Source of the DNA: Thermoproteota archaeon
GTDB taxonomy: Archaea; Korarchaeota; Korarchaeia; B14-G2
Length of the DNA stretch: 10,468 bases
Assembly: GCA_003661385.1 (NCBI GenBank)
Contig: QMWA01000048.1
Location: 1-10,468, forward strand
Direction of reading: 5' to 3'
Position numbers and translations under genes: made by a program. The notes beneath the pieces were generated by a model. That model saw only the letters and a program-made list of their open reading frames with translations. It made no database searches and was not told the DNA's origin. Shown here piece after piece: positions 1 through 10,453 of the stretch (positions are counted from its first letter, which is position 1; each line of letters starts with the position of its first letter).

Positions 1-1489
1 ACTTGGCTGCCTTCAGCTCCTCCTCTGCCCTCCTTATCCTCCTGAGGAGCTCCACCCTGGCGTCTAAGCCTGTCAGGGCCCTGAGCTCCCTTTCAAGCCT
101 CTCCCTCTCTACAGTGGCTTCCTCAAGCATGGCTCTGAGCCTCTCAAGCTCCCTCCTCAGCGCCTCACCCTCAAGCTCCTCTGGTGGAGCCTTGGTTGGT
201 TTTTTTGCAGCCCACTCCACGCAGGCTCTCAGGAGCTCATACCTCCTGCCCTTCCAGTAGCTGTGGTTCCTGAAAGGCCAGCTTTCCCCTACGACGACGA
301 GCCTGCCCTCCCCGACCTCGGCTGCAGCTGCAACACACTTGAACCCTCCTAAGACACCCCACATCAGCACCTCCTTAGCTGGAGGCTTAACTCTCATTGT
401 GAGAGGTGTCATGAGCTTAGCCCCCAGCGCCGCTCTACCGACTGGGTGCTCTAAGCTGCCCTCGTACTCCCCTCCCCTGACCGGGGTCTTGTTCACCCTT
501 ATCCCAGCTCTCTGGAGGAACGTGTTCAGGTGCTCTACCCTGTGGCTCCTGTCCACCAGGAGCACTACGCCGCCGCCGCTCTCGAGGAACCCAGCTAGCT
601 TGTCTAGCTCATCAGGTGGAGGAGGGTCTACTGCAACCAGGACATCAGCCTCCATGCTAGAGGGCACTTCCATGGTGTAGCCTACGCTGAAACCCCTAGT
701 GTAGAGGTCCCATGCCAGCCTGTAGTAGCCCTCCTCCCCAAGCCCTCTGAAGGAGCTGTCCTCCATGGGATAGAGAAGCACACGCCCTCTTCCACCCCCT
801 CTCCTAGGCCTGACTCTAGCAAGCCAGCTCAGCAAGCTCATAGCGAAAACCCTGTTGTCATACTCTGTGATGTACTCGTCTGAGAGCATCCTGTAGTCTC
901 CTAGCCCAGCTACCCTCCCCGCATTCTCGCAGGCTACAGCAAGCCTCAGGAAGCCCTCTTGCCCCCCTAGGCTCCTGGCCGTCATCTCACTGTAGCATAT
1001 CACCTTACAGCCCTCAGCTGAGATCGAGGAGGGCGCGTGGAGGCAGATCTTTGTGATGCTCCTGTCAACTGCAGGGTGGTCTCTAGCAAGCTGCCCTGTC
1101 ACAGGAGTCTCCTCACTGAGGTGGAAGCTACCTGGGTCTCTGACGAGGTCGCTGCTGAACCTGAACCTGAACAAGCTTGAGATGAAGCTCGGTGACCTAG
1201 ACTCGTCAGCTCTCCCGTGGCCTGCTATCAGCAGCCCTCCCCCACCCTCGACATACTCCTTGATGAGCTCCCTGTCCTCCTCTGTGAACTCAGCTCCCCT
1301 AGCGGGGGCGAACACAAGGAGGAGGCTTGAGTCCATTAGCACATCCTCCTCAAGCCTGCTGTCGAGGTACTCTACCTCAAGCCCAAGGTCCTGTAGGACT
1401 GCTAGGAGCTCGCTGAACTCTCTGCCGAACTCCTCTATCCCAAGCCCTAGGTGGTAGAGGTCTATGGAGGCTAGCTTTATCTTACCCAA
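1..1489 (-). CDS. Tandem GIFT/DUF4350-like domain protein with C-terminal coiled coil (3' end outside window)
   Basis: An uninterrupted reverse-strand frame of 496 codons runs off the left edge, so the C-terminus is missing. The chosen start is TTG at 1489-1487, with GAGGAGG about 9 nt upstream; it overlaps the end of the winged-helix gene by 8 nt. Two similar domains are visible. Domain 1 (about 5-226) has EYVEGGGGLLIAGHG (79-92), DHPAV (137-141), GRVAGLGD (191-198), DNRVF (211-215) and a terminal SWLA. Domain 2 (about 234-428) has FLESGGGVVLLVD (301-313), EHPVG (347-351), GEGRLVVVGES (393-402) and terminal VEWAA. This layout matches GATase-like domains of the GIFT/DUF4350/IFT52 type, which usually lack catalytic residues and act as binding or scaffold modules. 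From about 437 the chain is an Arg/Glu/Leu heptad-rich coiled coil. No signal peptide or membrane helix is seen, so it is probably cytoplasmic. Its cellular role is unknown; linkage to the ESCRT-III-like/AAA pair suggests a partner. The frame is certain; the family assignment is by pattern only. Confidence 0.8.
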   Translation of the reverse strand, partial: MGKIKLASIDLYHLGLGIEEFGREFSELLAVLQDLGLEVEYLDSRLEEDVLMDSSLLLVFAPARGAEFTEEDRELIKEYVEGGGGLLIAGHGRADESRSPSFISSLFRFRFSSDLVRDPGSFHLSEETPVTGQLARDHPAVDRSITKICLHAPSSISAEGCKVICYSEMTARSLGGQEGFLRLAVACENAGRVAGLGDYRMLSDEYITEYDNRVFAMSLLSWLARVRPRRGGGRGRVLLYPMEDSSFRGLGEEGYYRLAWDLYTRGFSVGYTMEVPSSMEADVLVAVDPPPPDELDKLAGFLESGGGVVLLVDRSHRVEHLNTFLQRAGIRVNKTPVRGGEYEGSLEHPVGRAALGAKLMTPLTMRVKPPAKEVLMWGVLGGFKCVAAAAEVGEGRLVVVGESWPFRNHSYWKGRRYELLRACVEWAAKKPTKAPPEELEGEALRRELERLRAMLEEATVERERLERELRALTGLDARVELLRRIRRAEEELKAAK

Positions 1490-1817
1490 CTTTACCTGCC
1501 TCCTCAGCTACCTCATATAGGAAGGCTAGGAGCTTCTTTCCAGCTAAGCTCAGCCTATAGACCTTGTTCTTGCCTTCGCCGATAGGCTCTATGACCCCAG
1601 CCTCCTCTAGGATGTGGCATGCCTTGAAGACTGCCTGCCTGCTCACCGAGGCCCCTATGGAGTTCAGTGTGTAGTAGAGCTCAGACTGGCTCTTCGGGCC
1701 TGTGAGCAGGGCCTTGAGCAAGGCAAACCTCACTGGAACCTCTCCCCTCTGGGAGTGGAACACTGCTTTGCCAAGCTTCACAACAGCCATGTCAGCTTCA
1801 TTGAGCTCTAAGCTCAA
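1482..1817 (-). CDS. Winged-helix transcriptional regulator (ArsR/MarR-like)
   Basis: This 111-residue protein has a helix at about 29-39 (RFALLKALL), a helix-turn-helix at about 43-74 (SQSELYYTL, then SRQAVFKACHILEEAGVIE) and a wing at about 76-90 (GEGKNKVYRLS). It ends in a short amphipathic helix that could dimerise. This is the usual archaeal winged-helix form. I take the TTG at 1817-1815 as start because GGTGG lies 4-5 nt upstream; an internal ATG at codon 10 (1790) is the alternative and would leave the DNA-binding part intact. It is first in a leftward two-gene operon with the GIFT-domain protein and divergent from the ESCRT-III-like operon. The palindromes in the shared intergenic region suit a dimeric regulator, so autoregulation and control of both operons are likely (inference). 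No ligand-binding Cys cluster is apparent; the single Cys is at position 67. Confidence 0.85.
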   Translation of the reverse strand: MSLELNEADMAVVKLGKAVFHSQRGEVPVRFALLKALLTGPKSQSELYYTLNSIGASVSRQAVFKACHILEEAGVIEPIGEGKNKVYRLSLAGKKLLAFLYEVAEEAGKVG

Positions 1818-1831
1818 GCTACCACCTTATC

Positions 1832-1855
1832 AACCCCACCATACACAATGGGGTT
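1832..1855. repeat. Inverted repeat AACCCCA-N10-TGGGGTT in regulator promoter
   Basis: Perfect 7-bp arms at 1832-1838 and 1849-1855 are separated by 10 bp. The repeat lies between the proposed TATA box and start codon of the leftward winged-helix gene, and the left arm overlaps a half-site TCAAC (1830-1834) of the operator motif found further right. It could be a second operator or a variant site; a transcript hairpin is less likely because it would sit at the extreme 5' end. Confidence 0.45.
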
Positions 1856-1863
1856 CTAAAATG
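1856..1863 (-). promoter_or_regulatory. Probable TATA box for regulator/GIFT operon
   Basis: Read on the minus strand this is CATTTTAG, preceded by an A-rich GGAAA that could serve as BRE. Transcription would begin about 26 nt on, near 1834, leaving a leader of roughly 16 nt that contains the GGTGG ribosome-binding site. The alternative is ACTTAAGT at 1881-1888, which abuts palindrome 1888-1903 and would give a 40-nt leader. I cannot decide between them from sequence. Confidence 0.4.
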
Positions 1864-1887
1864 TTTCCTGCCACCAGCGAACTTAAG

Positions 1888-1903
1888 TCAACTACAGAGT
1901 TGA
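1888..1903. promoter_or_regulatory. Operator-like palindrome TCAAC-N6-GTTGA, site 1
   Basis: The sequence TCAACTACAGAGTTGA has perfect 5-bp arms and a 6-bp spacer. With its flanks (1887-1905) it matches site 3 (2117-2135) at 18 of 19 positions, spacer included. It lies directly beside CTTAAG (1882-1887), a possible TATA box readable on either strand. A winged-helix dimer binding one arm per subunit would fit this spacing. The cognate regulator is inferred to be the adjacent 1482-1817 product. Confidence 0.6.
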
Positions 1904-1906
1904 TAT

Positions 1907-2047
1907 GAGCACACACCCTGAAGCCGGCACTGCCCCTGCTCAGCTGCATGCTGGAGCACTTCCTCTCCTGAAACATGTCCTTTTAGGTGGTATGCCTGGG
2001 AGCTAGGTGCCTGATGCACGTGGAGGTATGCTGCAGCTCTCTGCTTT
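1907..2047. other. Non-coding middle of the divergent intergenic region
   Basis: I see no credible reading frame, tRNA, convincing C/D-box RNA or strong hairpin here. GGTATGC occurs twice (1989-1995 and 2025-2031), which may be chance. CCTTTTAGG at 1979-1987 resembles a weak TATA element reading rightward, but no start codon follows at a useful distance. The length alone, in such a compact genome, hints at regulatory spacing or a small RNA, without direct support. Confidence 0.4.
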
Positions 2048-2049
2048 TA

Positions 2050-2065
2050 TCAACTTTGCGGTTGA
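2050..2065. promoter_or_regulatory. Operator-like palindrome TCAAC-N6-GTTGA, site 2
   Basis: TCAACTTTGCGGTTGA has the same 5+6+5 architecture as sites 1 and 3 but a different spacer, which argues that the arms are the recognised part. It ends 6 bp before the TTTTAA box at 2072-2077, so a bound protein would touch the BRE and the TFB footprint. That placement could either help or block TFB/TBP loading. Confidence 0.6.
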
Positions 2066-2079
2066 CAATAGTTTTAAGC
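2066..2079 (+). promoter_or_regulatory. Probable BRE/TATA promoter of the ESCRT-III-like/AAA operon
   Basis: CAATAG followed by TTTTAAG (TATA core 2072-2077) has archaeal BRE/TATA form. Initiation is expected near 2100, giving a leader of about 46 nt before the ATG at 2147. The leader would carry palindrome site 3, so operators flank the core promoter on both sides. Confidence 0.55.
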
Positions 2080-2117
2080 CCAATAGCTTGAGGGCTGCTT
2101 GAGGATGGGTGATTATG

Positions 2118-2133
2118 TCAACTACAGGGTTGA
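2118..2133. promoter_or_regulatory. Operator-like palindrome TCAAC-N6-GTTGA, site 3
   Basis: TCAACTACAGGGTTGA lies downstream of the expected transcription start and only 2 bp before the GGTGA ribosome-binding site (2136-2140). A protein bound here would act as a roadblock repressor. As RNA, the arms could also pair weakly next to the ribosome-binding site, but its near identity to upstream site 1, which is not in this leader, favours a DNA operator. Confidence 0.6.
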
Positions 2134-2146
2134 TAGGTGAGCTGAG

Positions 2147-3418
2147 ATGAGGAGCTTACTTAGGCTTGGCAGAGGAGACAAGATCAACGTAGAGGAGGAA
2201 GAGTGGTTCTTCAGGAGGTACCTTGAGAGGAGGAAGGGTGTAGCCTCCCTCCCGACGTTCCTAGAGGAGTCCAAGAGCTTCTTCGGGAGCGACGCCCACA
2301 GCATGGATGAGGGGAAGGCTGTCCTCGAGTACTTCACCAAGCACTGGGCCTGCTACACCTACAAGAGGCGTGGGGTAGCATACTACGTCTTCCCTGAGTT
2401 CGTCCCAGAGAGCGTCGTTAACTGGATCAGGAGAGCTGGACGCGAAGCTAGCGCAGAGTTCGTGTCAAAGTACTTCGGGTACTCTGAGATAGAGGCTGAG
2501 ATCATAGTGGACTACGTGAGGAAGTTTGAGTCAGAGGACATAGACCCCCTCACACTCAGGCTCCTCGAGGCAGCTGAGAAAGCCAACCCAGTGGGGTTCC
2601 TCAAGGAGGCTGAGGCAGCTAAGCTAGTAGGGGCGCCGCTGCCATCTGTCCAGAGGGCTCTAGCTGAGCTAGCTGAGAGGGGGGCTGTAGAGGTCTATGA
2701 GGATGACGGTGAGAAGGTCTATGTGTTCAGGGAGGCTGCCTCAAAGGACAAGCTGAACACCTTGAGGGTCATGAGGCTCAGGGCTTTGAGGCTGAGGCGT
2801 AGCTTGGATGAGAAGCTTAAGCTGATGGAGAAGGCATATAGGGACAGGCTTAGGCTGGCTAGGGAGGTTGAGAGGAGGGTTGGTGAGCTCCAGAGTGAGG
2901 CTAGGAGGCTTGAGAGGCACATAAGGGCTCTTGAAGCTGAGAGGCAGGCTCTAGCTGAGGCTGGGAGGGCTAAGGAGGCTGAGGCAGTCAAGGCTAGGGA
3001 GATACAGCTCATAAGGAGCAAGAAGAGGATTGAAGACGAGATCGGGGAGCAGGAGAGCTACATAATGGACGTTAAGCAGTTCAAGATAGAGCTGATAGAG
3101 CAGAGGATCAAGCTAGACAAGATAGAGAGGCTGATAAAGGACCTTGAGCTCAAGATCAGGATAGGAGAGACCATACCCTCACCTATGGGAGGAGAGGAGG
3201 ACATAGAGCAGTTCATAGAGCAGACCAGACGCTACCTTGAGGAGGAGTACAAGGAGGTTAAGGAGCTTGAGAGGGAGGTCTTCGGGATAGAGGAGGAGCC
3301 TCTCCTGGAGGAGGCTGAGGTCTCAGAGGAGGTTCTCAGCGAGCTTGAGAAGGTTGAGAAGGAAGTCAGAGTCATGAGGCAGAGGGAGCCCCTGGAGGAG
3401 GCTGAGCAGGAGGCATGA
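2147..3418 (+). CDS. ESCRT-III-like (Snf7/CdvB-type) coiled-coil protein with N-terminal winged helices
   Basis: This 423-residue protein starts at the only in-frame ATG after a stop at 2138; GGTGA lies 6 nt upstream. Residues about 15-85 and 137-196 look like two winged-helix units; the second has SVQRALAELAERGAVEV followed by a wing ending VYVFRE. A very basic helix then begins near 204 (LRVMRLRALRLRR) and continues to about 268. A turn containing EAGRAKEAEA (271-280) follows, then a second long helix (280-337), a Pro/Gly linker (343-349), a further helix (351-378) and an acidic tail. A basic first helix, hairpin, and acidic C-terminus are the hallmarks of ESCRT-III proteins, which polymerise on membranes in division and scission; winged helices before such a core recall eukaryotic CHMP7. 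A clear MIM motif is absent. The stop overlaps the AAA ATPase start. A generic coiled-coil protein, or one akin to SMC, is the alternative. Confidence 0.6.
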   Translation: MRSLLRLGRGDKINVEEEEWFFRRYLERRKGVASLPTFLEESKSFFGSDAHSMDEGKAVLEYFTKHWACYTYKRRGVAYYVFPEFVPESVVNWIRRAGREASAEFVSKYFGYSEIEAEIIVDYVRKFESEDIDPLTLRLLEAAEKANPVGFLKEAEAAKLVGAPLPSVQRALAELAERGAVEVYEDDGEKVYVFREAASKDKLNTLRVMRLRALRLRRSLDEKLKLMEKAYRDRLRLAREVERRVGELQSEARRLERHIRALEAERQALAEAGRAKEAEAVKAREIQLIRSKKRIEDEIGEQESYIMDVKQFKIELIEQRIKLDKIERLIKDLELKIRIGETIPSPMGGEEDIEQFIEQTRRYLEEEYKEVKELEREVFGIEEEPLLEEAEVSEEVLSELEKVEKEVRVMRQREPLEEAEQEA

Positions 3419-5454
3419 AGCCAGTGAAGGTCCTAGTGGCTCCGCTGCCAAGGGAGTACTCTAGCAGAGGCTTAGCTCGCCTAGACGTTGGGACTGCAGC
3501 TAAGCTCAAGGTGGACACTGGAGACTACATCATGGTAGAAGGCAGAGCTAAGGCTGCTGCCATAGTAGTCTTATGTGAGAGCTCTCAGCCAGTAGTTGAG
3601 CTAGACCCCTTAACCAGGGAGAACGCTGGCGTCAAGGTTGGAGAGGAGGCCGTAGTCAGGAGGGTAAGCCCCTCCAGGGCGCTGAGGCTCGTGGTCAAGG
3701 CGAGCAGGCCTGCTAGCGCAGCTGCAGTCAGGTCCAAGCTAGCAGGCTTCCCTCTCATAGCTGGCAACAAGCTCAGAGTAGCTCTCCCAAAGGGGCTATG
3801 CGAGCTCCACGTGCTCGAGACGACACCAGAGGGCCCTGTTGTAGCTGACAGGAGCACTGCGATAACGCTTGTGGACTCCAAGCCTGGGGCTAAGGCCTCT
3901 CTGAGCGACCTAGGCGGCTTAGGGCCTCAAGTTGAGGAGCTGCTAGCTAGGGTCATCGAGCCAGTCAAGAACAGAGAGGCCTATGAGAGGGTTGGTGCAG
4001 CACCACCACGTGGAGTCCTCATCTATGGGCCACCTGGAACAGGGAAGACGCTCCTAGCCAGGGCGCTAGCATGCGAGCTTGGTGCTGTAGCTGAGCTCTC
4101 TGGCCCAGAGCTAGCTGCAATGCCTCTCGACCAGGCTAGGGAGGCCTTAGAGCACGCATACAAGCAGGCTGTTGAAGCAGGGCTCGGCTCAGTCCTCCTG
4201 GATGACGTTGACAGGCTCAGTGGGGAGCTAGCTAGGCTAGCTGCATGCCTGATGGACAGGTATGAGCCCTCTCTGACGATAGCTACAGCAGCTAGCATAG
4301 ACTCAGTAGATCAGTCGCTGAGGAGGAGCGGTAGGCTTGAGGTTGAGGTCGAGCTCCCAGTCCCAGACAGGAAGGCTAGAGAGGAGATCCTCGAGGTCCT
4401 GGCTAGAGACCTGCCTCTTGCAAGCGAGCTCTACTCCTATAGGTGCCCTAAGTGCGGTGGAGCCTACAGCCTCCCAGGGGTCTGCTCAGAGTGCAGGGCT
4501 GAGCTGGAGCCTAAGCCTAGCTTAGCTAGAGTAGCTGAGGCAGCTAACGGCTACGTTGGCGCAGACTTGGCTGCAGTGTGCAGGGAGGCTGCTGTCCTGG
4601 CAGCTAGAGCTGGTAGCAGCGTGATAAGGCTAGAGCACTTCATGGAGGCCCTGAAGCTCGTTAGACCTACCGCCACGAGGGAGATCAGGACTGAGACCCC
4701 GAGGGTCAGTTGGAGCGATGTAGGAGGGCTCTCTGACGTGATCCAGCAGCTCAGGGAGGCAGTTGAGTGGCCTCTGAAGCACCCTGAGGTCTTTGAGAGG
4801 ATGGGTGTCAAGCCCCCTAAAGGGGTGCTCTTGTATGGGCCACCCGGCACGGGGAAGACCTTGCTTGCTAAGGCTGCTGCAAGCGAAAGCGGGGCCTCAT
4901 TCATAGCTGTCAAGGGCCCTGAGCTCCTAAGCAAGTGGGTTGGGGAGTCTGAGAAGGCTATAAGAGAGGTCTTCAGGAAGGCAAGGCAGTACTCCCCCTC
5001 GATAGTGTTCTTCGACGAGATAGATGCCCTAGCACCTAGGAGGAGCGACAGCGGCTCCAGGGTAAGCGAGAGGGTTGTGGCTCAGCTCCTGACTGAGATG
5101 GATGGGATAGAGGAGCTTGAGGGCGTTGTGGTGATGGCTGCCACGAACAGGCCTGACCTGCTTGACCCAGCTTTGCTGAGGCCAGGTAGGCTAGACAGGG
5201 TGATACAGGTCCCCCTCCCAGATGAGGAGGGTAGGCTTGAGATCCTCAGGATCCACACCAGGGAGATGCCTCTAGCCCCAGATGTAGACTTAGCTGAGGT
5301 AGCTAAGCTCACCCACGGGGCCTCTGGAGCAGACCTGAAGGCAGTATGCATCGAGGCAGCGATCCTAGCCTTAAGGGAGTCCCTTGAGGCAAGAGAGGTG
5401 AGGATGGAGCACTTCATGGAGGCTGTCAAGAAGGTGATGGCTTCACGTAAGTAA
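3415..5454 (+). CDS. CDC48/VCP-like tandem AAA+ ATPase with zinc-ribbon insertion and degenerate D1
   Basis: The 679-residue protein has the CDC48 order. Its N-domain (about 1-155) has [19 protein letters not shown] and [11 protein letters not shown], and is followed by D1 (about 163-415) and D2 (about 430-675). D2 is complete: Walker A GPPGTGKT 475-482, pore loop KWVGESE 507-513, Walker B FFDEID with D534/E535, sensor-1 N578, arginine fingers R592 and R595. D1 keeps Walker A (205-212) but has Walker B LLDDVD (263-264: DD in place of DE), no sensor-1 Asn (TAAS at 291-294), only the first finger arginine (R307) and no KxxGE pore loop. D1 may bind ATP without efficient hydrolysis. Between the D1 core and its lid sits a zinc-ribbon-like insert with C344, C347, C357 and C360. 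The family unfolds or disassembles protein complexes. The ATGA overlap with the ESCRT-III-like gene indicates coupled translation and suggests that protein as substrate or partner (inference). No MIT domain of the Vps4/CdvC type is present. Confidence 0.9.
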
Positions 5455-5486: not shown

Positions 5487-5813
5487 ATGCTAGGTGTAGT
5501 CCTCGCAATAGCTTTGGAGACCATGGCGCTGTGGGCTAGCCAGAAGATAATCCTGCCAGCAGAGAAGGAGAGGAGCTTGCCTTCAGTCCTGGCCCTGGTG
5601 CTAGTGGGCTTGCTTGCCTCAGCTGGGATAAGCCTGCTCATACCTGTGCTCGGCTGGCTGATCTCAGCTTTAGCTTGGCTCTGGCTCGTGAAGGTGTGGT
5701 TTAGGGTAGGCTGGCTTAGAGCTCTGGTGATAGCTCTGCTAGCTGTCATCATGCTAGCTGCTATAGCTCTCCTCGTAGGCCTCCCATTCCTAGCTGTAGA
5801 AAGGCTGAGGTGA
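5487..5813 (+). CDS. Small polytopic membrane protein, function unknown
   Basis: The 108-residue product is almost entirely hydrophobic. Likely membrane helices are at about 33-52, 51-70 and 77-103, and a shorter hydrophobic N-terminus (1-17) may form a fourth. A charged loop (PAEKERSLP, 24-32) separates the N-terminal segment from the rest. The ATG at 5487 is chosen because a TATA-like element lies about 30 nt upstream and a short GAGGGAG precedes it. I do not recognise a family. Its stop lies 4 nt before the next start, so the two are probably co-transcribed and may form a membrane complex. Confidence 0.75.
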   Translation: MLGVVLAIALETMALWASQKIILPAEKERSLPSVLALVLVGLLASAGISLLIPVLGWLISALAWLWLVKVWFRVGWLRALVIALLAVIMLAAIALLVGLPFLAVERLR

Positions 5814-5817
5814 GCTT

Positions 5818-6576
5818 ATGAGGCAGTTCACTCTAGGCATCCTAGCTGGGCTAGGCTTATCCCTGGTGGCGCTCTCAGCATTAGGCTATGTGCTGGCTTC
5901 ATCCGTGTATGAGCCTGCTTACAGGAGGATGGTTGAGGCTAAGCCCATGCTAGAGGACGCGCTAGCTCTGTTGGAGTCCAGTGAGGTAGAGGGCATGCTC
6001 TCCTCCTACAGGGAGCTCTGCTCTGCCATCCCGAAGGCTGAGGCTGCAGCGGAAGCGTACTCGAAGGCCTACCCTGCCTTAGTCAAGCTATCTGGCTTAG
6101 CTCAGGAGATGTATGAGGTGTCTCACAGCAGGCAGTACAACGAGATGATAGCTGCACTTGAGAAGGTGGCTGAAGCAGCTTCCGAGCTCAAGCCTCTGCT
6201 GGCTGCCGCAGGCTTAACAGACCTGTATGCTCTAGTTGACTCAGCTAGCATGGCAGCTGAGTTCATGAGGGAGGCTCAGAGGGCATCTGAGGCTGCAGCT
6301 GAAGGCTCTAAGCTCCTGGAGTCCATGCCACCTGAGGAGCTTAAAGCCCAAGTCGAGGCTCTCAAGAGGATGGCTGAGGAGCTTCCTCCAAGCAAGCTTG
6401 AGGGCATTGTCCAAGCTGCTAGGGTGAACGTCAGAGAAGCCTTAGCTGTGGTCGAGAAGGCTGAGAGGCACCCTCCAGGTCAGCTTAAGCTCCTGCTTGC
6501 AGCTGCTGGAGCAGCTGGCATAGCCTTGTCAGCTGTATCTGTAGCTGTAGCCCGGCACAGTATGGGGCTACAGTAG
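5818..6576 (+). CDS. Two-helix membrane-anchored protein with long helical central domain
   Basis: This 252-residue protein has a hydrophobic helix at each end (about 5-28 and 222-245). Between them lies a roughly 190-residue, Ala/Glu/Leu/Lys-rich region predicted to be helical, with heptad-like stretches such as KAEAAAEAYSKAYPALVKL and LKAQVEALKRMAEEL. Pro-containing breaks (PKA 72-74, MPPEEL 170-175, LPPSKL 189-194) suggest several helices rather than one rod. If both ends span the membrane, the middle lies on one side, most likely outside. Only two Cys-free domain breaks and one Cys (68) are seen, so disulfides are unlikely. GAGGTGA ends about 5 nt before the ATG. The family is not recognised; it resembles in general form surface or scaffold proteins of archaeal envelopes. 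Confidence 0.75.
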   Translation: MRQFTLGILAGLGLSLVALSALGYVLASSVYEPAYRRMVEAKPMLEDALALLESSEVEGMLSSYRELCSAIPKAEAAAEAYSKAYPALVKLSGLAQEMYEVSHSRQYNEMIAALEKVAEAASELKPLLAAAGLTDLYALVDSASMAAEFMREAQRASEAAAEGSKLLESMPPEELKAQVEALKRMAEELPPSKLEGIVQAARVNVREALAVVEKAERHPPGQLKLLLAAAGAAGIALSAVSVAVARHSMGLQ

Positions 6577-6601
6577 GCGAGTAGCGTGAACTACGACCAA
6601 G

Positions 6602-6619
6602 GGTTAGTAAACCTTAAAG
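6602..6619 (+). promoter_or_regulatory. BRE/TATA promoter of the DUF885 gene, with small palindrome
   Basis: TTAAA (6614-6618) preceded by GTAAACC has archaeal promoter form and would start transcription near 6642, 2-3 nt before the proposed TTG start. The BRE part lies inside a small palindrome, GGTT-AGTA-AACC (6602-6613), which could be an operator or chance. Confidence 0.5.
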
Positions 6620-6644
6620 CTACGCGCATGGGGGTGTTGGGGTC

Positions 6645-7889
6645 TTGTTGGCAGCTAGAGCTAAGCTAGCTGAATACGACACTGCATGCGATAGGCTGCT
6701 CTCGAAGCTAGACCTCCTCCTCAAGGTTAAGAGCGTAACGCTCGCGGAGAAGCTTGCTGAAGAGGCCTTAGCCTTGAAGAGCGTGTGCGAAGGCCTCAAG
6801 ACAGACTCCTCTCTCGAGCTGTGGAAGCTCCACCTCACAGAGCTCTGCGAGTACATAGCTGTATGCTCTGCTGCAGCCCCCCTGCCAGAGGCATCCTACA
6901 GCCTCATGCTCACAGTATGGGGGTGCAACAGAGAGCTCATAGGAGAGGAGAAGCTGAGGAGCGAGGTCAGGAGGGCTGCAGCAAAGTACAGGAGGCTAGC
7001 CCACGTTAAGAGCAGCTTGAAGGAGATCCCCTACCGTGAAGCCATAGTGGTGGATGAAGCTAGGAGGATCCTGCGTGAGCTAAGGGAGGTCACCACCAGG
7101 CACGTCGTTGAGCTGCCAGACGACCTGGATCCACCGATATCTGTTTCACCAAGCTACTCAGGGTATGTCTCAGGCTGCTTCAACACCATGAAGGGCATAC
7201 TGGTCATAAACTTCACCCCTGGAGGAACTAGAGAGGAGCTTGTCTCAGTGATAGCTCACGAGGTCTACCCTGGCCACCACGTCCAGAGGGTCTTCACATC
7301 TAGAGCTGACCTCCCAGCCACCATGAAGCTGAACTGGGTTGGCCGAGCGCTCAGGTGCTCTACTCCAGTAGAGGAGGGGCTAGCTCAGCTTGCTCAGAGG
7401 ATAGCTGAGGAGAAGCTCCTAGAGCCAGAGGTAGCAGAGTACTTCAAGGCTAGAAGAGAACTCTACTCCCGAGCTAGAGCTCTGATAGACCTGCTAGCCC
7501 ACTACTATGGGATGGGTGAAGCTGAGATAAGAGATGAGCTTGTGAAGCTCGGTGTTCCAGGAGAGCACGCTGACAACATGCTCTCCACCCAGGCTACAAG
7601 CTGCATGGACTCAGCCTACTACTACGGCGAGATGTATGTGGAGTGGATTCTAGAGCACGCTAGCCCCCTGCTAGAGGACAGGGAGCTCTCCTGGCCCCTA
7701 TACAAGCTCCTCTACACAGGCTACACCACACCCTACGTGAAGGCTGCTCAGGTAGCAAAGCTCCTAGAGGAGGAGCACCCTGAGAGAGCTAGGAGCTTGC
7801 TTGAGAGGTTCGAGCCAACTAGGCCCAGGTACCAGAAGAGGAGGAAGAGGATCGAGATAATAGACCCCCTGCTTGAGGAGGTGTTCTAG
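6645..7889 (+). CDS. DUF885-type putative zinc metallopeptidase (short form)
   Basis: The 414-residue product has HEVYPGHH at 205-212, the HExxPGHH motif of DUF885 proteins, a group placed among zinc-dependent gluzincin-like peptidases. H205 and H209 are not both in HExxH spacing, so the zinc ligands are probably H205, E206-assisted catalysis and the following histidines plus a downstream Glu. EEGLAQLAQ (243-251) matches the family's EGWALY-like element that could give that Glu. An N-terminal half of helices (1-150) and a helical C-terminus with an Arg/Lys-rich patch (394-402) complete it. Members are usually 550-600 residues, so this is a compact form. The start is TTG 6645 (or 6648): no ATG or GTG lies in frame after the stop at 6615, and the promoter spacing suggests a nearly leaderless mRNA. 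No signal peptide is seen, so it is likely cytoplasmic; its substrate is unknown. Confidence 0.8.
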   Translation: MLAARAKLAEYDTACDRLLSKLDLLLKVKSVTLAEKLAEEALALKSVCEGLKTDSSLELWKLHLTELCEYIAVCSAAAPLPEASYSLMLTVWGCNRELIGEEKLRSEVRRAAAKYRRLAHVKSSLKEIPYREAIVVDEARRILRELREVTTRHVVELPDDLDPPISVSPSYSGYVSGCFNTMKGILVINFTPGGTREELVSVIAHEVYPGHHVQRVFTSRADLPATMKLNWVGRALRCSTPVEEGLAQLAQRIAEEKLLEPEVAEYFKARRELYSRARALIDLLAHYYGMGEAEIRDELVKLGVPGEHADNMLSTQATSCMDSAYYYGEMYVEWILEHASPLLEDRELSWPLYKLLYTGYTTPYVKAAQVAKLLEEEHPERARSLLERFEPTRPRYQKRRKRIEIIDPLLEEVF

Positions 7890-8351
7890 TTGCCTGAAGG
7901 CAGAGAGGTTGTTGAGGTGCTTAAGCCCCATGAGGCCCTGGAGAGGGGGATGGAGCTCATTGCATGCGGCAGAGTAGAGGAGGCTAGGGAGATGCTGTGG
8001 AAGCTGGTGAGCCACAGCGTCAACGCAATAAACAGGATAGTAGACAGGAGGGGGAAGGAGAGCTTCCTCCCAGTCTACTACACCGCGCTAGCCATGCACG
8101 CCATAGTGCTCATTGAGATGAGCTACGCTGCCAGGGAGAAGGTTAGAGGGTGGATGGCGAAGCTCTCTGGCCTAGTGGACTTCCTGAACAACGTCATGGA
8201 GCCAGTGCTGAGGAGGTGGCTCATACACTACCCCGAGCTCAGAGAGCCCTTCAAGGTCATGGACAGGCTAAGCGACATCATAGGAAGGGAGTGCAGGAGG
8301 AAGAGCATACCAATGCTCCAGAAGAGCCGCTGGCTTCCACTAGAGCAGTAG
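7890..8351 (+). CDS. Helical protein of unknown function coupled to the DUF885 gene
   Basis: The TTG start follows the DUF885 stop with no gap, and GAGGAGGTG inside the end of that gene serves as ribosome-binding site. The 153-residue protein appears wholly helical: EALERGMELIACGRVEEAREMLWKLV at about 15-40 looks like a TPR-type helix pair, and two longer amphipathic helices follow (about 60-83 and 87-110). The end is basic (ECRRKS). A HEPN- or TPR-like bundle is possible, but I see neither the RxxxxH motif of HEPN nucleases nor repeated TPRs. No membrane segment or zinc motif is present. Tight coupling suggests a role with the putative peptidase. Confidence 0.7.
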   Translation: MPEGREVVEVLKPHEALERGMELIACGRVEEAREMLWKLVSHSVNAINRIVDRRGKESFLPVYYTALAMHAIVLIEMSYAAREKVRGWMAKLSGLVDFLNNVMEPVLRRWLIHYPELREPFKVMDRLSDIIGRECRRKSIPMLQKSRWLPLEQ

Positions 8352-8380
8352 CCAGCTTGACACCACTGTAGCGCACAGGG

Positions 8381-8393
8381 GAAAAGCTTATAC
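8381..8393 (+). promoter_or_regulatory. BRE/TATA promoter giving a leaderless transcript
   Basis: GAAAAG followed by CTTATAC is the best archaeal promoter in the window. The TATA centre (about 8390) is 27 nt before the ATG at 8417, so the mRNA should begin at or within a base of the start codon. No ribosome-binding site is needed or positioned for that ATG. Confidence 0.7.
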
Positions 8394-8416
8394 GTATACT
8401 ACCTCCTGCAGGCTTA

Positions 8417-8695
8417 ATGCAGGTAGAGGAGGCTATAAGAGAGTACAACTCAGCTAGGAGCCCTGAAGCCGAGGCCAAGCTGATCTCAGCTAGAGGAGGC
8501 CGAATAGAGGTGGAGTTCAAGCTAGCTAGGGCATGCAGCCTCCTAGACTGGGTTGAGGACCTAGCACTCATCCTAGAGGACAAGCTCAAGGCTAAGGTGA
8601 AGCTTGAGGAGATCAGAGAGCAGGAAGGTGAGGAGATAAAGGTTATAGGCGTGTTCAAGCTGGAGGCTGATAGAAGTGCAGGCGATAGTAGCTGA
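8417..8695 (+). CDS. Small protein of unknown function leading the ABC exporter operon
   Basis: The 92-residue product starts at a leaderless ATG. Its likely structure is a short N-terminal helix (MQVEEAIREYNSA), a strand (GRIEVEFKL, 28-36), an amphipathic helix (about 39-57) and two strands (KAKVKLEEI and EIKVIGVFKL), a beta-alpha-beta-beta form reminiscent of half a ferredoxin-like fold. I considered the KEOPS subunit Pcc1, which is of similar size and fold type, but its conserved pattern is not present. The last 20 nt overlap the ATPase gene, so its translation is probably coupled to that of the ATPase. It may regulate or assist the transporter; no function can be assigned. Confidence 0.65.
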   Translation: MQVEEAIREYNSARSPEAEAKLISARGGRIEVEFKLARACSLLDWVEDLALILEDKLKAKVKLEEIREQEGEEIKVIGVFKLEADRSAGDSS

Positions 8696-9650
8696 AGACC
8701 TGAGGAAAAGCTACACAACATACCTGAGGAGGGGGCTCAGGAGGGAGAAGAAGGTAGTTGAGGCGCTACGTGGAGTATCCTTTGAAGTCAGGTACGGGGA
8801 GGTCTTCGGGCTCCTAGGGCCAAACGGAGCAGGCAAAACCACCACAGTCAAGATACTGGCAACCCTGCTGCTACCCGACTCAGGGAAGGCTACGGTAGCC
8901 GGCTTCGATGTCGTGGAGCAGCCAACTGAGGTCAGGAGCAGAATAGGGGTGACACTGACAGTTGAGAAGGGCTTCTTCTGGAAGCTCACTGGGAGAGAAA
9001 ACCTGAAGTACTTCGGGCTGCTCAGAGGCCTCAGCGGATCCAGCCTAGACTCGAAGGTAAGTGAGCTTCTCAAGCTAACAGGCTTAGAGAAGCTTGGGGC
9101 ATCAGACAAGCTCTACGAGGAGTACTCCCTCGGGATGAAGGCCAAGCTCTCACTGGCTAGAGCTCTGCTAGCAGACCCCCCTGTCCTCATGCTAGATGAG
9201 CCCACCCTAGGCCTGGACCCGCCCTCAGCTAGAGAAGTCAGAGAGCTCCTGGTGAAGCTGGCTAGAGAGGAGGGGAAGGCTGTCCTAGTGACTACACACA
9301 ACATGTGGGAGGCTGAGGCAATATGCGACAGGGTCGCTATAATAAACCAGGGTATCATAGCTGCAGTAGGGAGCGTAGGAGAGCTGAAGAAGCTGGCTCC
9401 AAGGAGGTCAGCGCTGAAGGTGCTGCTTGAGGCCCCTAGGCTGGATGAGCTGAGGGAGGCTGTAGACTGGATTGGAGAGGAGGACGGGTGGACTGCTGTC
9501 AAGGTGTACTGTGAGCCAGGGGAGGAGGGTGAGGCCTTAGCTGGCATAGCCTCGCTGGTAGCTAAGCTAGGTGGCAGAGTACACAAGGTTGAGGTAGCTG
9601 AGCCCACGCTAGAGGACGTGTTCATAGAGCTGACCAGGGAGAGAGCATGA
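8676..9650 (+). CDS. ABC-2 type transporter, ATP-binding subunit
   Basis: The 324-residue protein has Walker A GPNGAGKT (48-55), signature SLGMK (151-155), Walker B LMLDEP (171-176), D-loop GLD (179-181) and switch H208. A basic insertion at 15-27 before strand 2 and a C-terminal extra domain of about 85 residues (245-324) are typical of DrrA/NatA-like exporters. The Q-loop glutamine is absent: the usual IGxxxQ reads IGVTLT (90-95) and is followed by GFFWKLTGRENL, a form I recall in a subset of ABC-2 ATPases with xFYWRLTGRxNL. The GTG at 8676 has GGAGG 9 nt upstream and gives a normal N-terminus. It powers export by the membrane subunit encoded next, at the cytoplasmic face; the substrate cannot be deduced. 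Confidence 0.93.
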   Translation: MQAIVAEDLRKSYTTYLRRGLRREKKVVEALRGVSFEVRYGEVFGLLGPNGAGKTTTVKILATLLLPDSGKATVAGFDVVEQPTEVRSRIGVTLTVEKGFFWKLTGRENLKYFGLLRGLSGSSLDSKVSELLKLTGLEKLGASDKLYEEYSLGMKAKLSLARALLADPPVLMLDEPTLGLDPPSAREVRELLVKLAREEGKAVLVTTHNMWEAEAICDRVAIINQGIIAAVGSVGELKKLAPRRSALKVLLEAPRLDELREAVDWIGEEDGWTAVKVYCEPGEEGEALAGIASLVAKLGGRVHKVEVAEPTLEDVFIELTRERA

Positions 9651-10453
9651 CTGCAGTAGACGTGGTGAAGGCAAGCCTATACCTAACGTACTCCTGGTAC
9701 AAGAACAACAGAGTCATGCTAGCCATGTCACTGCTCTGGCCCTACCTCATGGCCTTCCTAGTCCTGGCGCTGGGGAGCATGTACGGCAGCTTAAGCGAGT
9801 TCACCAGGAGGATGGGCGTATCAAACCCAGTCCTCTACATGCTCGCGTCAAGCACCGTAGCCTTCTCGAGCATAGCCATCCTGGAGGCTGCAGTCGGGTT
9901 CGTGATGTACAACAGGTGGCTTGGGACACTCCAGTACATAGTGCTCTCCCCAGTGAAGTCCAAGACCCTGATAGCTGTAGCAGGGATCCCAGACTCCATG
10001 ATATCAGCAGTGGTCTCAGTGACAGCTGTAGCCCCAGCTGCAGCCTACTTCGAGGGCCTCCACGGAGCCCTCAAAGCCATAGCTGTCCTCCTCCTGATCC
10101 TAGCTGGAATGACCCCCATGCTAGCCTTCTCAGTGATAGCTGCTGCAGCAACCCTCTCAGTGAGAGAGGAGACAAACGTACTAGCCTTCCTGAACCCGCT
10201 GATCCTCCTGCTCAGCGGCGTCTTCTACCCAATAGAGGTCTTGCCCAGGCTCCTGCAGCTCGCCTCAAAGGCAGTCCCCTCAAAGTACGTGATTGATGCA
10301 GCTAAGCTGGTTGCAACATACACGACACCAGAGGGTAAGCTCCTCATGCTAGCCCTCTACCCGCTGGCAGCCCTCGCCGTAGCCTACAACCTCATAGCCT
10401 TAGCTGGAGTAGACAAGGCTGTGAGCTTAGCTAAGAGGAGGGGGTTCGAGTGA
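9647..10453 (+). CDS. ABC-2 type transporter, permease subunit
   Basis: The ATG overlaps the ATPase stop (ATGA), the standard arrangement for an ABC pair. The 268-residue product has about six membrane helices: about 23-47, 62-88, 107-134, 141-171, 178-197 and 232-254. The connecting loop NRWLGTLQYIVLSP (89-102) is the coupling-helix region typical of ABC-2 permeases (R-x-G-T-L-x-x-x-xxSP), and SGVFYPIEVLP (190-200) is the family's characteristic motif before the last helix. It would form the membrane channel for a hydrophobic or envelope-related substrate, as a homodimer or with a second permease if the next gene encodes one. Confidence 0.92.
   Translation: MTAVDVVKASLYLTYSWYKNNRVMLAMSLLWPYLMAFLVLALGSMYGSLSEFTRRMGVSNPVLYMLASSTVAFSSIAILEAAVGFVMYNRWLGTLQYIVLSPVKSKTLIAVAGIPDSMISAVVSVTAVAPAAAYFEGLHGALKAIAVLLLILAGMTPMLAFSVIAAAATLSVREETNVLAFLNPLILLLSGVFYPIEVLPRLLQLASKAVPSKYVIDAAKLVATYTTPEGKLLMLALYPLAALAVAYNLIALAGVDKAVSLAKRRGFE

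Follow-up and report, generated by a model that had tools for sequence, protein, structure and literature searches.

Do a CDC48-type ATPase, a coiled-coil protein with the predicted shape of ESCRT-III (endosomal sorting complex required for transport III) and proteins carrying a GIFT domain form one machine? The question is raised by a locus at the start of contig QMWA01000048.1 from a Thermoproteota archaeon (assembly GCA_003661385.1), which encodes a winged-helix-turn-helix (wHTH) regulator with a GIFT protein on one strand, and a 423-amino-acid (aa) coiled-coil protein with an ATPase on the other. The window, i.e. the whole stretch of DNA that was analysed (10,468 nt), is the entire contig C48; its genome, G000, comprises 1.74 Mb in 206 contigs at 91% completeness and is the sole representative of its order among the 29 sampled genomes of the phylum. 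An earlier note, made from the letters of the window, had proposed a membrane-remodelling machine distinct from the archaeal Cdv system. Here we report that the locus belongs to a five-gene module conserved in three genomes, that its ATPase is by domain make-up and tree placement a derived CDC48 paralogue, and that the link to known ESCRT machines rests on predicted shape, not sequence. We tentatively read the module as a local, regulated membrane-remodelling machine, ESCRT-III/PspA-plus-AAA-like but built from other parts, and place this reading somewhat short of an even chance.

Results

A five-gene module shared by three genomes

The conserved set consists of the wHTH regulator, a double-GIFT coiled-coil protein, a coiled-coil protein with signal peptide, GIFT domain and transmembrane segment, a tandem-winged-helix coiled-coil protein, and the CDC48-type ATPase. 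It is present in 3 of the 29 genomes (G000, G003, and G024), in two arrangements. The GIFT protein and this type of ATPase have identical distributions, both being confined to the same 3 of 29 genomes; the chance of such an overlap is 1 in 3654, assuming independence and equal completeness.

G003 belongs to another family of the same class as G000. Its proteins are 51% (423-aa protein), 52% (ATPase), and 44% (GIFT protein) identical to those of the window, and its module spans less than 8 kb, including the wHTH gene and an 871-aa protein with signal segment, GIFT domain, transmembrane segment, and coiled coil. The operons are convergent in G003, as opposed to divergent in the window. In G024 the genes for the wHTH, GIFT, and transmembrane proteins lie in unchanged order on contig C77 (the GIFT orthologue with 36% identity to the window protein), and the ATPase is found on contig C231. 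At the start of C231, right before the ATPase, codons read by eye in frame as VRVMRQRTPLLEEEKEGEY* are the counterpart of the end of the window's 423-aa protein, VRVMRQREPLEE; G024 therefore also has the 423-aa-protein/ATPase pair, cut by the contig end. The wHTH orthologues occupy the same position in both genomes (50% identity in G003, 46% in G024).

Searches of 40 diverse archaeal genomes and of 398 Thermoproteota gave no orthologue of the 423-aa protein; the matches outside the phylum were short stretches, mostly winged-helix regions of unrelated proteins. Viral contigs yielded no orthologue either. The earlier note had staked its proposal on neighbours that are conserved together: the genes do recur together in two further genomes, more than expected by chance, and the conserved five-gene set bears out that a GIFT-domain protein takes part.

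Within the window, the gene coordinates confirm the two divergent operons with a common intergenic region (329 nt from the open reading frame coordinates) and short overlaps that had been described before. The wHTH gene, 1482-1817(-), overlaps the GIFT gene, 1489-1(-), by 8 nt, and the gene at 2147-3418(+) overlaps that at 3415-5454(+) by 4 nt. The main features are as follows (evidence in brackets).

1..1489, minus strand: soluble, DUF4350-like protein with two GIFT domains and a C-terminal coiled coil, incomplete at the contig end (PF14258/PF23355/PF09822)
1482..1817, minus strand: winged-helix regulator of transcription, encoded first in the GIFT operon (weak ArsR/wHTH-type matches; orthologues in the same position)
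1818..2146: shared divergent promoter region, between the divergent gene starts, containing all three operator palindromes
2147..3418, plus strand: tandem-winged-helix/long-hairpin protein with ESCRT-III/PspA-like layout, 423 aa (AlphaFold2 model; orthologues)
3415..5454, plus strand: CDC48-type ATPase with two AAA+ domains, of which D1 looks inactive and has a zinc ribbon between its AAA core and lid (Pfam/NCBIfam, tree, motif comparison)

The ATPase is a CDC48 paralogue with a degenerate first ring

3436..3870, plus strand: CDC48 N-domain, CDC48_N + CDC48_2 (Pfam)
4003..4404, plus strand: D1 AAA domain with Walker A intact and Walker B reading DD, retaining neither the sensor-1 Asn nor the pore-loop aromatic (motif comparison)
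4444..4494, plus strand: zinc ribbon CPKC...CSEC (in 3/3 orthologues, 0/76 other archaeal CDC48s)
4825..5217, plus strand: D2 AAA domain, motifs DEID, ATNR, and KWVGES all intact (Pfam, motif comparison)

Profile searches identified CDC48_N, CDC48_2, and two AAA domains in the ATPase, and no MIT domain. In a tree of the C-terminal AAA domain, the three ATPases form one clade (100/97) on the CDC48 side, split from Vps4 at 100/100. The N-domain, the two AAA domains, and the tree placement thus assign the protein to CDC48/VAT, as the earlier note had it when it described a CDC48-type ATPase without MIT. The curated CDC48 model TIGR01243 gave 610.5 bits against a cut-off of 802.65, and the intact motifs of two rings are not present. 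The protein does not belong to Vps4/CdvC: it lacks MIT, has two AAA domains, and reaches 230.8 of 650 bits with the CdvC model.

All three orthologues have a Walker-B DD instead of DE in D1, where the sensor-1 Asn and the aromatic pore loop are also gone; D2 keeps its Walker B, sensor-1, and pore-loop motifs in all three. DExD is retained in D1 of all 76 comparison proteins, i.e. the ordinary archaeal CDC48s returned by the ATPase search of the genome contigs. On this evidence the ATPase is a derived CDC48 paralogue, neither an ordinary CDC48 nor a Vps4, and since the D1 motifs are lost and those of D2 intact, it probably works with a single active ring.

In G003 the ordinary CDC48 gene (L083:10670-12940) and the wHTH gene of the module are 0.9 kb apart. 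The D2 of this CDC48 has long stretches identical to the zinc-ribbon paralogue, yet the tree separates the two; local gene conversion may account for this identity.

The 423-aa protein resembles ESCRT-III in predicted layout, not in sequence

2189..2392, plus strand: first winged helix, aa 15-82 (AlphaFold2 secondary structure)
2534..2731, plus strand: second winged helix, aa 130-195 (AlphaFold2; weak wHTH Pfam matches; VIA structure comparison)
2750..3172, plus strand: long helical hairpin, aa 202-271/275-342 (AlphaFold2; structure alignments)
3194..3283, plus strand: helix a4-like, aa 350-379 (AlphaFold2)
3326..3382, plus strand: C-terminal helix a5, aa 394-412, conserved EVxx(M/L)RQR (AlphaFold2, orthologues)

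The AlphaFold2 model of the 423-aa protein has a mean pLDDT (predicted local distance difference test) of 76.5; the N-terminal part was also modelled alone. A helical linker is predicted between the two winged helices, followed by a hairpin with helices of 70 and 68 residues, and the predicted order of winged helix, winged helix, long hairpin, a4, and a5 is that of CHMP7. PspA, Vipp1, and Asgard ESCRT-IIIB superpose on the hairpin almost gaplessly over 116-135 residues: the Asgard ESCRT-IIIB filament with Z 11.1 (root-mean-square deviation (rmsd) 3.7, 116 residues), Vipp1 with Z 9.3, and PspA with Z 8.9 over ∼132 residues. A profile alignment of the hairpin with PspA extends over 120 columns with the Gly of the turn aligned; its score was reached by 2 of 200 heptad-block shuffles and its length by none of 200, and it is about as strong as that of true CdvB pairs against PspA. 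The recognisable PspA of this genome is encoded elsewhere, on contig C148. By eye, the EVxx(M/L)RQR end is similar to the C-terminal helices of Asgard ESCRT-III. In ESCRT-III a C-terminal MIM binds the MIT of Vps4, but the partner ATPase here lacks MIT, and any functional meaning of this helix is conjectural.

The winged-helix half had its best Foldseek matches to UFL1/DDRGK1 and ESCRT-II subunits (E 1e-4 to 1e-3); ESCRT-II chains gave E 2.4e-4 to 7e-3, with UFL1/DDRGK1 and SelB ranking alike. The second winged helix matched a human ESCRT-II chain with VIA Z 10.2 (rmsd 2.1, 68 residues), tied with DNA-binding winged-helix domains.

Several results weigh against an ESCRT-like protein. The alignment behind the AlphaFold2 models holds two sequences only. 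Unrelated coiled coils superpose as well on the hairpin (chemoreceptor Z 11.4, dynein stalk 10.7), so that the fold match alone is unspecific. For the winged-helix part, Foldseek ranks UFL1/DDRGK1 ahead of ESCRT-II, and the scores for the tandem winged helices are low (TM-scores of about 0.3). Profile searches found no PF04012 (PspA_IM30) match in the protein, and no PF03357 (Snf7) match in the protein, the genome, or 22 genomes of the phylum, in a search of limited sensitivity that gives a weak signal even in TACK genomes. Profile-profile comparison with Asgard/TACK ESCRT-III did no better than heptad-preserving shuffles.

In addition, hhalign of the hairpin to Asgard and TACK ESCRT-III remained below 1%, hmmsearch with ESCRT/PspA profiles over 2137 open reading frames did not single out the 423-aa protein, and a PDB sequence search with it returned nothing useful. 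The Snf7 family label was rejected for want of a profile match in the protein, the genome, and the 22 phylum genomes. The ESCRT-III-like coiled coil of the earlier note is thus retained as a compatible tandem-winged-helix/long-hairpin layout in the AlphaFold2 model and abandoned as a Snf7 match. Comparison of profile hidden Markov models, suggested there for residues 204-378 against Snf7/CdvB, revealed no similarity; of the two kinds of ESCRT-III resemblance whose lack was to count against the idea, that by profile is absent and that by fold layout is compatible. An ESCRT-III-like mode of working is plausible for the 423-aa protein, with membership in ESCRT-III unproven.

These data also bear on the main rival, in which the module serves quality control or extraction of membrane proteins: the CDC48 paralogue would unfold proteins at the membrane, the tandem-winged-helix coiled coil would be a substrate adaptor comparable to the UFL1/DDRGK1-type winged-helix scaffolds of protein-modification machines, and the GIFT proteins would recognise damaged envelope proteins. 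Extraction and unfolding are the usual work of the CDC48 family, UFL1/DDRGK1 heads the Foldseek matches, and the 423-aa protein is without an ESCRT-III sequence match. However, D1 looks inactive and has lost its pore loop, the predicted hairpin, a4, and a5 fit the PspA layout, and the conserved set includes no ubiquitin-like or protease gene. We regard extraction as fairly unlikely.

GIFT proteins probably link the module to the membrane

The window GIFT protein passes the curated cut-offs of PF14258 (54.2 bits, cut-off 30.4, two stretches) and PF23355 IFT52_GIFT (33.7 bits, cut-off 27.2), and hence belongs to the GIFT/DUF4350 group. Its G003 orthologue scores 77.4 and 38.2 bits, respectively, and full-length orthologues have 579 and 591 aa. 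The missing end is supplied by a near-identical copy on contig C201 of G000 (L093). The start of C201 overlaps the window edge (1-113) by ∼113 nt with several mismatches, and C201 was therefore taken as a close variant of the window locus; going by these mismatches, the bin either mixes strains that are close to each other or contains the locus a second time in near-identical form.

The next gene on C201 after the GIFT protein encodes 812 aa. The hydropathy of its product, the third protein of the GIFT operon, points to a signal-type segment followed by a GIFT domain, a long helical part, a transmembrane segment, and a further helical tail; the side of the membrane on which each part would lie is presumed. 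The earlier note had seen GIFT/coiled coil as a scaffold. A role as scaffold alone leaves out this membrane-spanning GIFT protein, which is encoded outside the window. Ancestry shared with ciliary IFT52 was rejected because the DUF4350 match exceeds the IFT52 match, and the parallel drawn earlier is reduced to the name of the fold.

A second rival, which we consider improbable, is an AAA+-driven secretion or surface-assembly system as proposed for archaeal DUF4350 (arCOG01314), with the ESCRT-like protein as a structural coiled coil. Archaeal DUF4350 proteins that have a signal peptide and a single transmembrane segment were earlier proposed to act in secretion or membrane remodelling, in a complex with a different AAA+ ATPase encoded nearby (PMC5898192). 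The third protein of the GIFT operon has a comparable topology, with signal-type segment, GIFT domain, and single transmembrane segment. Against it, the COG0714 AAA+, vWA, and surface proteins of that neighbourhood are all outside the conserved set, and most of the conserved proteins have no signal or transmembrane segment.

A local regulator is likely

1888..1903: operator-like palindrome TCAACTACAGAGTTGA
2050..2065: operator-like palindrome TCAACTTTGCGGTTGA
2118..2133: operator-like palindrome TCAACTACAGGGTTGA, 13 nt 5' of the start codon of the ESCRT-like gene

These sites came from a motif scan of window and genome. TCAAC-N6-GTTGA occurs in three mismatch-free copies within 1888-2133 and nowhere else in the window (3 observed versus 0.10 expected; none of 200 shuffles gave 3). 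The longer GTCAAC-N6-GTTGA has four sites genome-wide, three of them in the shared promoter region. One perfect copy lies upstream of the wHTH gene in G003; G024 has no copy with this spacing, and GTTGAC/GTCAAC motifs are present upstream of its wHTH gene. Because the promoter region contains three palindromes, 3/4 of the genome's sites, local regulation is likely, in agreement with the single local regulator proposed at the outset. The 111-aa wHTH protein is the obvious candidate for binding them.

A DNA-related machine, with DNA-binding tandem winged helices and an SMC-accessory-like or partition coiled coil, would account for the best scores of the second winged helix (against DNA/RNA-binding winged helices) and for the ScpB and MukBEF chains among the weak Foldseek matches, but is highly improbable given a separate wHTH regulator that already fits the operators, a partner GIFT protein that crosses the membrane, and no SMC, ParA, or DNA enzyme in the conserved set.

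Neighbouring genes

The window genes downstream of the ATPase (5487-8695) have no counterpart beside the module in G003 and G024, and were excluded from the module for this reason. At 5487-6576, 3' of the ATPase, two small membrane proteins are encoded, the second with a transmembrane helix at both ends. A DUF885-type protein (PF05960, 40.2 bits) with the metallopeptidase-like motif HEVYPGHH is found at 6645-7889. An ABC transporter ATPase and permease pair occupies 8676-10453; those parts of G003 and G024 that were read show no such pair next to the module. GldG-type GIFT proteins elsewhere are parts of ABC exporters. In G024, a pair of MNT-like nucleotidyltransferase and HEPN-like genes (L092:4646-5453, named by eye) adjoins the wHTH gene.

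Discussion

The ESCRT-like membrane-remodelling reading is favoured because five genes are conserved, the order of two winged helices, hairpin, a4, and a5 is predicted, PspA aligns weakly but in register, a single ring appears active, and published precedents exist. In this scheme, the membrane GIFT protein would sense or gather something outside the membrane, a putative signal or cargo, and relay it along the transmembrane helix into a helical tail in the cytoplasm. This receptor would be connected to the tandem-winged-helix protein by the soluble double-GIFT coiled coil. Like the N terminus of CHMP7, the winged helices would bring their protein to the membrane or to the adaptor, and its long hairpin would polymerise. 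The CDC48-like ATPase would pull subunits through its sole active ring, D2, with D1 and the zinc ribbon acting as a docking and regulatory ring, and the wHTH protein would control both operons via the three palindromes. Overall, such a receptor-adaptor-polymer-ATPase chain would carry out local membrane remodelling or repair. Of the machine proposed earlier, the distinctness from Cdv and the unity of one conserved module stand, and ESCRT-III descent of residues 204-378 is unproven.

Core cell division was set aside as the function of the module: FtsZ is present in all 29 genomes of the phylum and the module in three, which makes this job unlikely. Apart from two ordinary FtsZ genes, tandem clusters of several FtsZ-like paralogues were observed (G005:C1:900642-906124), and similar arrays in G006, G009, G019, G020, and G024.

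No description of the combination of GIFT, CDC48, and winged-helix-winged-helix-hairpin proteins was found in the open-licence literature, supplements excluded, and GIFT or IFT52 is absent from the main text of an ESCRT survey (PMC10936438). It is possible, though doubtful, that the module represents a further archaeal ESCRT class outside the Asgard, TACK, and euryarchaeal types, with a one-chain ESCRT-II/ESCRT-III protein of CHMP7 layout, filaments disassembled by a CDC48 turned one-ring remodelling ATPase, and GIFT adaptors coupling to a membrane receptor. If the ESCRT reading is true, the CDC48-to-Vps4 transition and the origin of CHMP7-type fusions become testable with purified proteins. 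Even if it is false, the locus encodes a conserved, regulated, membrane-linked AAA+ system whose description was not found in that literature.

Comparison with known systems

In haloarchaea, Halo_adaptin loci encode an ATPase of VAT-N type without MIT, with PspA-like and winged-helix proteins alongside (Makarova et al. 2024, PMC10936438). They share with the module an MIT-less ATPase with a CDC48/VAT N-domain, a PspA-like ESCRT-III candidate just upstream, and winged-helix partners. Their ATPase, however, is Vps4-like, winged-helix and ESCRT-III proteins are separate, and the partners are adaptin-like IG and beta-propeller proteins, whereas the module has a CDC48 with two AAA domains, an apparently dead D1 and a zinc ribbon, tandem winged helices fused to the hairpin, and GIFT partners. 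In bacteria, PspA is encoded beside a protein with two AAA domains, the N-terminal one inactive (Ravi et al. 2024, PMC11237479), again a PspA/ESCRT-III-type coiled coil next to an ATPase with an inactive first AAA. There the coiled coil is without winged helices and GIFT proteins are unmentioned. The archaeal DUF4350/arCOG01314 complex resembles the module in its DUF4350 (GIFT) domain, signal peptide, single transmembrane segment, and neighbouring AAA+ gene, and differs in having a COG0714 ATPase and vWA partner in place of CDC48 and an ESCRT-like protein.

CHMP7/Chm7 also has tandem winged helices followed by ESCRT-III-type helices in one chain, a likeness to the 423-aa protein in predicted order, with no sequence similarity shown. 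The partner ATPase of CHMP7/Chm7 is Vps4. The tandem winged helices of CHMP7 bind membrane (PMC5069351), and p97/UFD1 also acts at nuclear-envelope sites (PMC5023845). The Cdv system of TACK archaea (CdvABC) likewise combines an ESCRT-III-like protein, CdvB, which also has a winged helix, with an AAA+ ATPase; unlike here, the CdvB winged helix is single and C-terminal, CdvC has MIT and one AAA domain, and the phylum studied here has FtsZ throughout. In the published scheme, Vps4 arose from CDC48 when one AAA ring was lost, and a CDC48-type N-domain is a possible relic (PMC10936438). The module retains the full CDC48 chassis, both rings kept and the first inactivated, beside an ESCRT-like protein with tandem winged helices in one chain. 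A single active ring would thus be shared with Vps4, but reached by loss of D1, and an ESCRT class of this kind, if true, would offer a present-day parallel to the transition proposed between CDC48 and Vps4.

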